The notes under the pieces were generated by a model. That model was not told the DNA's origin. It did not search any database and saw nothing but the letters and a program-made list of their open reading frames with translations. From the NCBI GenBank assembly GCA_903900335.1, contig CAIUMP010000053.1, positions 1 to 64,000 of the forward strand: a DNA stretch of 64,000 nucleotides, given 5' to 3'. The position numbers and the translations under genes are program-made. The stretch's first letter is position 1. Every line of letters starts with the position of its first letter. Positions 2-6,910 of the stretch are shown piece after piece. Source of the stretch: an uncultured Ignavibacteriota bacterium (GTDB taxonomy: Bacteria; Bacteroidota; Ignavibacteria; Palsa-1295).

Positions 2-994
2 CTTCGATCCACGGGGCGGAGTGACTATGTAGCGACTGACCTTTATGGCAATGTATTCCATTTCAAGAATGATCCACCGTTCGATCTTTCGCAATTTGCA
101 CGCGCAATGTATGAGGATACACTTATAGCATCCTGGCAGAACCCAGAAGTGCATAGCGATTCGAATGGCGGAGGTGGTCGTGTCACTGTCCTTCCCATTC
201 TCCACCGTCTCGGAAATAACGCTACCGCAGACTTGGACATGTCCTGGGTTAGGAGTGACGACCCGAATGGAAATTACAGCGAAAACATCTTCGCTGGTGG
301 GCCAAACTTTGGCTCGAAGAGACTGACTGCCAAAGATACTACATTCTGCCTTCGATCACCGGGATATTATGATCCGATGTGGTTCATCAGTTGGGGCGGA
401 GGACTCGGCCTGTGTGGAGATATGACAGGCACGGGTGAGCCGGTGATCTCGATGGACGGTGGTGAGCCGGGCTATAGCCACAGTTTTTTTTACGTGATGG
501 GTGAAGCGACTGACCCATTGGTTGACATGTACTTTGGTCAAGCGCAGGGCGGTGGTGTGGGAGATACAATCACCGCCGATGGGGACAACCTTGAAGACAT
601 GATCGGGGGCAATCCTAACTACCGCACCGAGGGGGGCAAACAGACGAATGTGGGTACCATCGAGGTTCTACATGGCTCCCGCAAAATCCCCGTTCGCCTC
701 AACCCTCGCTTCGCCGTCGTGCCGCCGAGCGTTCAGTCCGGCGATTCGCTTCGCATCGCTCCAAATCCCTGCTCGAATCACACAGTGGTTACGTGGGAGT
801 CGTCGTGTTCGGGGTCAGTGGGGTTGCAGCTTTACGACGTGATGGGTCGTCAGGTTTTTCATGAGCGGCGTCCGACGACAGGCGCGCTGGAGAGCTTTAG
901 TCTCGATCTGCCGCGCCTGCCGAATGGGGAGTATTTCCTCGTGCTGCTTCAGGAGCCGTGTGTGCAGCGGGGGAGGATTTTGGTGCAGGAGTAG
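2..994 (+). CDS. Secreted protein with T9SS C-terminal sorting domain (5' partial)
   Basis: The reading frame is open to the first base of the window, so the true start lies upstream. About 330 residues are visible. The body is rich in Gly, Asp and Asn and contains no domain I recognise. The last ~80 residues have the layout of a Por/type IX secretion sorting domain: an APNPCSNHTVVTW strand, then LQLYDVMGRQVFHE, then LPNGEYFLVLLQ and a basic last strand ending LVQE. Proteins with this tail are exported by Sec, cross the outer membrane through T9SS and are released or anchored on the surface. A palindromic repeat begins about five bases after the stop. The function of the exported part is unknown. 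Confidence 0.75.
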   Translation, partial: LRSTGRSDYVATDLYGNVFHFKNDPPFDLSQFARAMYEDTLIASWQNPEVHSDSNGGGGRVTVLPILHRLGNNATADLDMSWVRSDDPNGNYSENIFAGGPNFGSKRLTAKDTTFCLRSPGYYDPMWFISWGGGLGLCGDMTGTGEPVISMDGGEPGYSHSFFYVMGEATDPLVDMYFGQAQGGGVGDTITADGDNLEDMIGGNPNYRTEGGKQTNVGTIEVLHGSRKIPVRLNPRFAVVPPSVQSGDSLRIAPNPCSNHTVVTWESSCSGSVGLQLYDVMGRQVFHERRPTTGALESFSLDLPRLPNGEYFLVLLQEPCVQRGRILVQE

Positions 995-3639: not shown

Positions 3640-4464
3640 ATGATGAAACGCTACCTGATAGCTTGGACGGTAATTCTGCTTGTCACACTCACGCTGATCG
3701 AAACGGCCCACGCCCGTCGGATCAAGATCTACAGGCTTCCGAAGGAAGTCGTTGCCGGGCAACTTGGCTTGATCATCTTCGAGAACCCGAGCCCGGAGCT
3801 CGTGAGATCGCAGTCCAAATGCACGGTGGAGAAATTGCTGGGATGGAGTAAGTCGGACATGCCTATCCTTCGCTTCGAACAGAACGGAAAGCAGGTGTGG
3901 ATGCCGCTCTGCTCTTATCAGACCATTGGCGATTCCTGCATCGCAACCTTCGTGGCGCCTTCTACGCTCGTCGCAGGATCCGTCACGGTGTTCCTAATCA
4001 ATGGGTCGGACCCGAGTGTTCCATCGCAGCTCAAGGTCGGGACAAAACTCCAGTCGGAATTGAATGGCATTGTTGGTGCATCGGTTGCTCCACTGGGCGT
4101 AGTGCGGGTGATCGGCGATGGGTTTGTACCGGAGGTCTTCTCCGATCATAAGAAGCTGAAAGATGAGCTCGAAGGAAACATCGCACTGAGCAAAATGTCG
4201 AATGCGGATCAATGGGGCGCGTTGAACCATCGGATCATGAAGGATTGGGATAAACTGCCGGTTGGAGACTATCTTCTCGTCGAGCAAGCCGGCAAGTCCT
4301 GGCGTTGTTTTGTGGATGAATGTGGCGTGGAGGCGAAAGGTATGACGCTCAGCTTTGTTGCTCCGCCTGATCTGCAGCCTGGCACCGCAACGCTGAAGGT
4401 CGTCTGCATGCTTGGTGGAACGGAGGCCGCGCGCAGCCAGGCGGTGACAGTGAGTGTACAATAG
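3640..4464 (+). CDS. Exported protein of unknown function
   Basis: A 274-residue protein with a clear signal peptide: MMKRYLIAWTVILLVTLTL followed by ETAHA, with cleavage likely near residue 25. The mature part contains two stretches that read like immunoglobulin/IPT-type beta sandwiches (near residues 30-125 and 190-274), each ending in a strand such as SVTVFLING or TATLKVVCML. Two Cys residues near 222 and 227 could form a disulphide. No catalytic motif is visible. It is probably periplasmic or surface exposed. It stands alone between the secG terminator and the glycosyltransferase cluster. Confidence 0.6.
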   Translation: MMKRYLIAWTVILLVTLTLIETAHARRIKIYRLPKEVVAGQLGLIIFENPSPELVRSQSKCTVEKLLGWSKSDMPILRFEQNGKQVWMPLCSYQTIGDSCIATFVAPSTLVAGSVTVFLINGSDPSVPSQLKVGTKLQSELNGIVGASVAPLGVVRVIGDGFVPEVFSDHKKLKDELEGNIALSKMSNADQWGALNHRIMKDWDKLPVGDYLLVEQAGKSWRCFVDECGVEAKGMTLSFVAPPDLQPGTATLKVVCMLGGTEAARSQAVTVSVQ

Positions 4465-4638
4465 TAGCGGCTGACTCACTGATTAAGAGGCCTGTTAGGT
4501 CTCGATTCTTTCATCGGGTTGATCCCCTAGGACCACTGCTACCCTGTACATTCGCAGTTTACTGTTCCTAGCTATATGCCTCGAAACCAGACTGAAGCAA
4601 TTCGAACGCTGCCGGCCATGCCGAAATCGAGTGTGCCG

Positions 4639-4920
4639 ATGAGGCTTCACGTCGTTGGGTTGGTTCACACAGAGACAACCACAGCGTTCGATTGGTGTGC
4701 ATTCAATGAGATTGTTCTTCAAGGTGTTGCCGGATTCCGTTGCGTTAGGCTCGCCGAGTTTGAAGATGCAGCTCAACGGGTCGGTGAGCTTGATCGTAAT
4801 TCGATTCGAGAGTACGCCATCCGCAATTACCCCTCGGAAGTTGTTCGTCACCAGAGTGACCACTCCTTTAAGCGACTCGCAACACTCAAAGGCAAGGGGT
4901 GGTACGAACTTTCGACGTAA
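4639..4920 (+). pseudogene. Internally deleted glycosyltransferase remnant
   Basis: This 93-residue ORF begins with a motif I associate with the N-terminus of a large glycosyltransferase-like family (HVVGLVHTETTTAFDWCAF; usual form H-V-x-G-L-P-H-T-x-T-T-x-x-x-x-x-C-A-F/Y). It ends with a motif typical of the C-terminus of such enzymes (REYAIRNYPSEVV ... FKRLATL ... GKGWYEL). The two ends are joined in frame near codons 24-35, and the 300 or so residues expected between them, including the donor-binding core, are absent. An upstream ATG at 4576 would extend it by 21 residues. It lies 14 bases before the GT2 gene, as expected for a former operon partner. Most likely a dead gene. The 4465-4638 stretch before it shows nothing else. 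Confidence 0.5.
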
Positions 4921-4934
4921 CATATCCCAAGGAA

Positions 4935-5969
4935 ATGTCACTATGTCTGAACATGATAGTCAAGAACGAGGCACACGTTATTCAGCGTTGTCTTCGTTCG
5001 GTGCGTCCGTTCATTGATTCGTACTCGATCAGCGATACGGGCTCCACGGACAACACGCTGGATTTGATCAGGGAAGAGCTTGCTGGCCTGCCGGGAGTTT
5101 TGATGTGCGATCCCTGGCTAGGTTATGGCCCAAGCAGGAATGTGGCTTTGTCTCGCTCCTCAGGTTCGCATATTCTTTGGCTCGACGCGGATGAAGTGTT
5201 TGTGAACGCTGGCGGGCCTTTGGAATTACCAGCGGAAGTTGACTACTTCGAGATTATGCAGATAGCGACCGGGTTCTCCGTCTGGCAGAGGAGAATCATC
5301 CGAAACGTGGAGGGTTGGAGATGGCAGGGGATGGTTCATGAGGTGCTCGTCTTCGATGGCGTTTCGAAGGGGATGATGTTGAACAATATCCAGATCCGAG
5401 GACTATACGACTCGCATCAGAACATCGTGGGAAATAAGTACCTCGACTACCTCGATATCCTCAAAGGCGAGGCCCCCACCCCCCGAAACGTCTTCTATCA
5501 CGCAAGTACGCTCTTCGAGCTCGAACGATACGAAGAGGCGATTGCCAAGTATGACGAACGCGTGGCGATGGGAGGATGGGAAGAGGAAGTGTACTACTCG
5601 TTGTGGAAGATCGGCGAGTGCAAACGCTACCTTTCACGACCTTTTCAGGAAACGGCGGGAGCCCTATTTGCCGCCTATGTGTATAGGCCGTCGCGATTTG
5701 AAGCGCTTGCATCGCTCTGCAGCATTTTAGGGCAGAACAAGAGATGGCAGGAAAGTTACCAGCTCTCTGCTCGTAGCGTCTCTCCACCGGGCGACGCGCT
5801 ATTCGTTATGCCGAGTGCAGAATGGCGCGTACTTGAAGAGCATGCGCTGGCAGCCTTTTACCTCGGAAAGAAAGAGGAGGCGCGCGAATATTTTCAACGG
5901 GTGGCTCAGTACGATCTTGACCCAACCGACAAAGCACGGATCAAAACCAACCTTAGTTATTGCACATGA
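4935..5969 (+). CDS. Family 2 glycosyltransferase with TPR-like C-terminal half
   Basis: A 344-residue protein. It opens with the GT-A fold signature SLCLNMIVKNEAHVIQRCL, then SDTGSTDNT (nucleotide-sugar binding) and the metal-binding DxD-type motif LWLDADEVF near residue 75. After residue ~190 the chain becomes helical with TPR-like pairs (LFELERYEEAIAKYDE, AAFYLGKKEEAREYFQ). GT2 enzymes with TPR tails transfer sugars to glycans or proteins, and the TPR half may bind the acceptor. The ATG at 4935 was chosen because the conserved region begins there; a GTG at 4899 would overlap the upstream remnant. Its TGA overlaps the ATG of the ATP-grasp gene by four bases, so the two are probably translated together. 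Confidence 0.85.
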   Translation: MSLCLNMIVKNEAHVIQRCLRSVRPFIDSYSISDTGSTDNTLDLIREELAGLPGVLMCDPWLGYGPSRNVALSRSSGSHILWLDADEVFVNAGGPLELPAEVDYFEIMQIATGFSVWQRRIIRNVEGWRWQGMVHEVLVFDGVSKGMMLNNIQIRGLYDSHQNIVGNKYLDYLDILKGEAPTPRNVFYHASTLFELERYEEAIAKYDERVAMGGWEEEVYYSLWKIGECKRYLSRPFQETAGALFAAYVYRPSRFEALASLCSILGQNKRWQESYQLSARSVSPPGDALFVMPSAEWRVLEEHALAAFYLGKKEEAREYFQRVAQYDLDPTDKARIKTNLSYCT

Positions 5970-6910
5970 AAGAACGCCTTCTTATTGGACTCCTATTCGG
6001 ACAAGAGCGCACGTTCCCCGAAGCATTGCGCGAACGGATCAACACTATCGGCGCGAGCGACGGCGTATCATGCGAATGGTGTTCACTCGACAATTGGCGG
6101 ATGGACGAGCCGAAACACTATGATGTAGTGCTTGATCGCATCTCGCAGGATGTGCCGTTCTACCGAGCCGTTCTGAAAAACATGATCCTGGCAGGTACTC
6201 GCGTGGTCAACAATCCGCTCTGGTCAAGCGCCGACGAGAAGTTCTTCTCCTACGCTGCGTGTGCCAAAGCGGGAATCGCAGTTCCGCGCACCGCCCTTGT
6301 CCCAAGCAAGGAGATGCCGCCCGACACCAGTGGAAACTCGTTCCGAAACATGAAGTTTCCATTGGACTGGGAAGCGATATTCGAGTACATCGGATTTCCG
6401 GCGTTCTTCAAACCGCACGCTGGTGGGGGCTGGAAGAACGTGTATAAGGTCGATACACCGGAGGATTTCTTCAAGGCATATGATGAGACAGATACACTTG
6501 TAATGACGCTTCAAAGCGCAGTACATTTTACAGAGTACTACCGCTGCTATGTGATAGGTAAGAAGCATGTTAGAATCATGCCGTATGAACCGCGCAATCC
6601 GCATCACCTTCGATACCAAGCCGGCTTTGAGCCGTCGGCCGAAATGCGCAAGCGAATTACCAAGGATTGCTTAACGATCTGCAATACGCTTAGCTATGAG
6701 TTCAACACAGTGGAGTTCGCTGTGGAGGATGGGGTGCCCTATGCGATCGACTTCACCAACCCAGCACCGGACGCGGAGCGAACGAGTGTCGGTGAGGAGA
6801 ACTTTGAATGGGTGGTGCAGACGGCGGCCGAGTATCTCATCTCACTTGCGAAGATGAAACCGCAGCCGCCGAGCACTAAGCAAACGTGGAAGGATCTGCT
6901 GCTCGCATGA
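5966..6910 (+). CDS. ATP-grasp ligase (RimK/glutathione synthetase-like)
   Basis: A 314-residue protein with an ATP-grasp layout: an N-terminal pre-ATP-grasp segment, the lysine/Gly-rich ATP loop FFKPHAGGGWKNV near residue 148, a central EYYRCYVIGKKHVRIMPYE strand pair, and the metal/ATP site NTVEFAVEDGVPYAIDFTNP near 250-270. The usual E-x-N metal pair appears as D-x-T-N. The family joins a carboxylate to an amine or thiol through an acyl-phosphate. The ATG overlaps the GT2 stop by four bases (ATGA), so the substrate may be the glycan or peptide handled by the GT2 enzyme. A YbdK-type carboxylate-amine ligase lies 1.9 kb downstream. The exact substrate cannot be told. Confidence 0.75.
   Translation: MKERLLIGLLFGQERTFPEALRERINTIGASDGVSCEWCSLDNWRMDEPKHYDVVLDRISQDVPFYRAVLKNMILAGTRVVNNPLWSSADEKFFSYAACAKAGIAVPRTALVPSKEMPPDTSGNSFRNMKFPLDWEAIFEYIGFPAFFKPHAGGGWKNVYKVDTPEDFFKAYDETDTLVMTLQSAVHFTEYYRCYVIGKKHVRIMPYEPRNPHHLRYQAGFEPSAEMRKRITKDCLTICNTLSYEFNTVEFAVEDGVPYAIDFTNPAPDAERTSVGEENFEWVVQTAAEYLISLAKMKPQPPSTKQTWKDLLLA

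Follow-up and report, generated by a model that had tools for sequence, protein, structure and literature searches.

A probable in-frame deletion remnant of a PHROG 3408-type glycosyltransferase gene ahead of an intact GT2 gene in an uncultured Ignavibacteriota bacterium

A short open reading frame in the genome of an uncultured Ignavibacteriota bacterium carries the beginning and the end of a glycosyltransferase and little in between, which raises the questions of how it arose and whether its product is still of use. The window analysed here is a stretch of 64,000 nucleotides, corresponding to bases 1–64000 of contig 53 of a draft genome (G000) that comprises 62 contigs. The frame, 114 codons at 4576–4920 on the + strand, contains the family start at ATG 4639, which gives a product of 93 residues (hereafter the stump). 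The features of the locus are listed below.

3640–4464, + strand: conserved flanking gene upstream of the stump/GT2 pair, with no Pfam match; of 21 genomes, 12 carry it, and 11 of the 12 are relatives
4576–4638, + strand: optional 5' extension of the stump frame, 21 codons, absent from the family
4639–4704, + strand: N-terminal stump, MRLHVVGLVHTETTTAFDWCAF, 22 codons with the first strand of the family and the HTxTT...CAF motif; aligns with the starts of full-length relatives
4690–4710, + strand: deletion joint D-W-C-A-F-N-E, placed by DNA comparison and by counting motifs over 71 distinct relatives of full length
4705–4920, + strand: C-terminal stump, 71 codons plus stop, comprising the final strand and the three final helices of a GT-B C-terminal domain; ends in GKGWYELST-stop
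4935–5969, + strand: intact GT2 glycosyltransferase with a TPR tail (PF00535, E 8.4e-9; PHROG 13126, E 6.7e-29)
5966–6910, + strand: ATP-grasp-like gene downstream of the stump/GT2 pair, with a weak R2K_2 match below Pfam's cut-off

The motifs of the family are found at both termini of the stump. The N-terminal HTxTT...CA[FY]TE motif is represented by HTETTTAFDWCAFNE, with N replacing T at the joint, and the C-terminal motif, GxTG[FY]RC followed by a GWY end, is present with A replacing T in GVAGFRC. A Pfam search of the stump gave no match. The sequence-only reading had allowed that codon statistics favouring the opposite strand would count against it, and the opposite strand does score slightly higher per codon (0.035 vs 0.019 for the + frame, over a short ORF). 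Homology nevertheless settles the + strand, and the higher score opposite the stump cautions against assigning the strand of short ORFs by codon statistics. The shadow ORF on that side spans 4495–4941 (− strand, 148 codons).

A search of the stump ORF against its own genome found only one other matching gene, located on contig C23 and matched twice: residues 21–45 of the ORF against C23:17003–17077 (64%, E 1.2e-5) and residues 36–102 against C23:16010–16210 (55%, E 2.7e-19). The two matches are ~0.8 kb apart, inside a single open frame of 807 codons that also has a short 5' extension. The gene product, of 803 residues, has a GT4 domain ahead of TPR and a GT9-like domain. The stump is identical to this protein at 16 of 22 positions at the N end and at 35 of 69 positions at the C end, and the N end alone (22 residues, 73%) matches it with an E value of 1.1e-7 in a small local database.

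The C23 protein is the nearest intact copy for the N end (identity 0.73) and one of the two nearest for the C end, which is about equally near the viral relative L153 (0.52) and C23 (0.51). This difference between the ends is compatible with their descent from different paralogous genes joined by recombination. However, each end lies at its native terminus, both are near C23 and a third family member was not found in G000; we regard such a chimeric origin as very improbable. Like the stump, the C23 gene has a GT2 in its cluster, one related to that of the window; unlike the stump, it is intact, is fused to the TPR and GT9-like domain, and is separated from the GT2 by one gene. Its contig (bases 1–18163) is occupied by a glycosylation cluster that contains several GT2 copies, a pyruvyl-transferase-like gene, the gene for the GT4-TPR-GT9-like protein and one for a double protein that has galactosyltransferase/Fringe-like matches. 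A collagen-like (GxTGPTG) repeat protein is encoded at the contig end, and the cluster resembles the tail-fibre and glycosyltransferase neighbourhoods of cyanophages.

Full-length members of the family to which both ends belong come mostly from viral contigs. PHROG 3408 (glycosyltransferase, 363 positions) matches a viral relative with an E value of 5.6e-81, C23 with 2.9e-66 and the stump with 3.4e-9, the last through the C-terminal part and up to position 362 of 363. Among 50,697 phage records, 60 match the intact C23 domain, with at least 80% of the query covered in 51 cases; 51 of the 60 are Synechococcus phages, with identities to the C23 domain of ~36% in the best rows. One viral contig is 50% identical to the domain. 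A profile search of viral contigs yielded at least 585 relatives among the 600 candidate stretches listed, of which 80 were kept. The comparison set comprised 79 ORFs from these 80 viral loci (L188 was left out) together with C23, three phages and one plasmid, 84 sequences in all and 71 distinct. Both ends of the stump align with this same family across the 71 distinct relatives; thus the claim of the sequence-only reading that the ORF joins the N- and C-terminal ends of one glycosyltransferase family is borne out by the alignment, by the two C23 matches and by the PHROG 3408 match.

The PHROG 3408 members found in cyanophages, among them Synechococcus phages S-CAM7, ACG-2014f and S-CBWM1, and in other viral contigs share the HT...CA[FY]T and GWY ends with the stump. 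Unlike it, they are ~350–375 residues long and have a complete GT-B core, whereas the window copy is without about 260–277 codons and sits in a bacterial operon. The PHROG 3408-type gene of each of the three annotated phages has tail, tail-fibre or collagen-repeat genes nearby. A published account of large marine phages proposes that glycosyltransferases of the tail-fibre region alter the host surface (PMC7029224). Homologues of the GT4 and the GT2 occur together in none of 140 viral loci, and therefore the stump/GT2 pair is not a known phage cassette.

The stretch missing from the stump, relative to full-length genes, is ~780–831 bp and includes the E-x7-E motif. The distance from N site to C site is 822 bp in C23, 831 bp in the viral relative L112, 786–804 bp in the phages and the plasmid and 780 bp in further viral rows. 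In terms of the C23 domain, approximately residues 23–296 are absent, including EPFGNVAVE, and nearly all of the Glycos_transf_1 domain (residues 212–349 of the intact C23 protein) is missing. The frame remains open to the native stop, in agreement with the sequence-only reading, which had described the catalytic core as gone and the frame as kept.

The predicted structure of the C23 GT4 domain is a confident GT-B fold (pLDDT 90.4, pTM 0.88). Its best solved fold matches are tll1591 (7fg9, 8x3q) and tetrahydrobiopterin glucosyltransferases (5zer, 9v0l), with Foldseek E values of 1.4e-19 to 7.1e-16 for the GT4-type matches; a sequence search also finds these enzymes, which differ from the C23 domain in being only ~17–20% identical to it. 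Mapped on the C23 model, the lost stretch corresponds to nearly all of both Rossmann domains, and the stump retains, besides the first strand, the last one with three helices. Neither the E-x7-E/nucleotide-sugar site nor the two Rossmann domains of the GT-B fold, which are features of a functional GT4, are found in the stump, and catalysis by it is excluded. The model of the 93-residue product itself has a pLDDT of 62.9 and shows two strands and three helices, with residues 1–17 below 50 and the C-terminal helices at ~70; a structural search with it gave no match (best E 6.9).

The position of the joint suggests how the core was lost. At the N site of the 71 distinct relatives, xxCA[FY]TE, the counts are C 71, A 70, F 47 or Y 24, T 71 and E 66, and at the C site, DWGAFTE, they are D 71, W 70, G 71, A 69, F 70, T 63 and E 71. 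The stump reads DWCAFNE, such that the joint falls at the spot where the N-site and C-site peptides coincide in register. Both ends are thus from one family, the core between them is missing, and they meet on two look-alike sites in the same register. A short-repeat deletion from one site to the other would produce just such a peptide: mispairing of the short repeats in replication or repair would join CAF to AFNE.

Over 15 nucleotides, the DNA of the two sites is identical at 10 positions in 24 of the 71 genes, at 11 in 22, at 13 or more in 8 and at 6 in C23. In 9 of the 71 genes the site pair ties for the longest exact repeat at lags of this size, and by the median a fraction of 0.001 of the 15-mer pairs at those lags resemble each other as closely as the two sites do. 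Because the sites agree only moderately at the DNA level, the repeat mechanism is plausible rather than proven. A scan of viral contigs with one degenerate version of the joint pattern gave no matches. Deletion between short repeats is a general way in which bacterial pseudogenes arise, and the stump is like them in that the gene core is lost between short look-alike sequences; it is unlike the general case in that conserved peptide motifs of the family form the repeats. A search of literature listings returned nothing on point for an in-frame-deleted glycosyltransferase remnant or for short-repeat deletion.

The genome is fragmented and the C23 contig measures only 18 kb, circumstances in which the joint could have been made during assembly. 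The joint copies neither C23 nor any other sequence compared, however, and a short imperfect repeat should not collapse an assembly; an assembly artefact is extremely improbable. We interpret the stump, with good confidence, as what is left of a PHROG 3408-type gene for a GT4-type (GT-B fold) glycosyltransferase after a single in-frame deletion of ~0.8 kb.

The surroundings of the stump bear on why its frame has persisted. The GT2 gene begins 14 bp past the stop of the stump and its own stop overlaps the ATG of the ATP-grasp-like gene (ATGA), in agreement with the earlier placement of an intact GT2 in the same apparent operon. Because the two joined sites share one frame, translation would continue through the joint to the native stop, and the deletion should consequently be non-polar on the GT2 and the overlapping ATP-grasp gene. 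This arrangement would explain the persistence of the frame despite a non-enzymatic product.

An alternative explanation is that the stump acts as a translated leader for coupled translation of the GT2, in which case its being read would matter, its sequence would not, and only in-frame deletions would survive. The close spacing of the genes is consistent with it, as are the lack of a well-spaced Shine-Dalgarno sequence ahead of the GT2 ATG and the lack of a sigma-70-like site on the + strand between 4400 and 7000, where a scan for promoters and terminators gave nothing above chance. That scan covers one promoter type, however, and the frame could persist by chance (1 in 3), and we judge a leader role decidedly improbable.

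The slot itself holds neither glycosyltransferase in the relatives read. The sequence-only reading had suggested looking for a full-length gene at the same place in related genomes. This was not found: in 14 stretches from 13 relatives with one or both flanking genes, no GT2, GT4 or stump was present at the slot at an E value of 1e-4. The two flanking genes are directly adjacent in G011 and G012, unrelated genes lie between them in G007 and G008, and in G001, G002 and G004 the upstream flanking gene is followed by a gene found further down in the window. Among the genomes read, the stump/GT2 pair is thus particular to this lineage. The GT2 has no match at an E value of 1e-5 in six same-genus genomes; within G000 it has six close paralogues (47–60% identity) on C4, C23 and C56.

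Several related genes were observed elsewhere in G000 and in the window. On contig C1, a 331-residue ORF (4678–5673) matches the tail of the window's GT2 over its C-terminal 100 residues (39%), and its N-terminal part does not; the GT2 tail may be a movable module. On contig C4 (2834–6792), two GT2 relatives flank the gene for a 187-residue protein that gives the impression of an oxygenase, and a 138-residue TPR-tail protein comes after them. This 138-residue neighbour was considered as a second truncated glycosyltransferase and rejected, as it consists of a TPR piece and an apparent membrane segment and is probably a gene of its own. The ORF at the start of the same contig looks like a putative tail-fibre-type protein. 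In the window, the product of 107–994 (+ strand) has a C-terminal end resembling what we take to be a type IX secretion C-terminal sorting domain.

Whether the stump is kept for its own sake was assessed from its sequence evolution. At the 95% level of conservation, the stump retains 7 of 9 and 16 of 19 conserved columns, compared to 6 of 9 and 15 of 19 in the intact C23, and it contains no stop or frameshift. In a tree built on 98 columns from 72 sequences, the stump and C23 form a pair, with a branch of 0.53 for the stump and 0.37 for C23. Relative-rate counts of stump-only versus C23-only changes were 13 v 7, 7 v 10, 9 v 8, 8 v 11 and 8 v 5 with five outgroups, and differences by codon position do not clearly separate the two branches. 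The stump thus evolves at most slightly faster than the intact gene. In a simulation, 51% of sequences remained free of stops with 20 random substitutions, falling to 19% with 60, so that the open frame alone says little on the age of the deletion. The stump is as little decayed as C23, which fits a recent deletion or else weak constraint on what remains.

These features could also be accommodated by a small protein under selection, acting as an adaptor, as a partner of the GT2 or of an intact GT4, or as a dominant-negative piece: conserved residues are retained as in the intact C23, relative-rate counts are not clearly raised, the frame is open and the C-terminal helices are predicted at ~70 pLDDT. 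A recent deletion accounts for this retention equally well, however, and the stump branch is longer than that of C23, two tyrosines conserved at the 95% level in the last helix are serines in the stump, and the predicted fold is poor and without a structural match. Moreover, the short two-ended form occurs nowhere else in 391 genomes of the class (three matched, including G000, the other two weakly and partially) or in 395 genomes of the phylum (four matched, including G000, the other three being partial matches within frames of 357–403 codons). We consider a selected small protein quite unlikely. Loss in progress by way of an internal deletion is the simpler of the two outcomes that the sequence-only reading had left side by side, and the adaptor has gained no positive support, having no short homologue and a low-confidence fold.

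It is also unlikely, on our assessment, that the in-frame look-alikes of the family (CAFTE and DWGAFTE, ~0.8 kb apart) favour the same deletion and that the 90-residue product is kept as a GT2 partner or translated leader. The stump is most likely a dead gene fragment, with no function of its own peptide.

The case is thus one of ordinary gene loss by a mechanism that is tidy and likely, and it offers a clean example of a glycosyltransferase gutted without harm to the operon behind it. For annotation, the ORF is better described as a glycosyltransferase remnant than as a hypothetical protein. The most useful additions are the placement of the joint on look-alike conserved peptides and the non-polar arrangement before the GT2. 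Conserved repeats of this kind may predispose PHROG 3408-type genes to such deletion, and the joint on two conserved look-alike motifs suggests a weak spot in a widespread family of phage glycosyltransferases.
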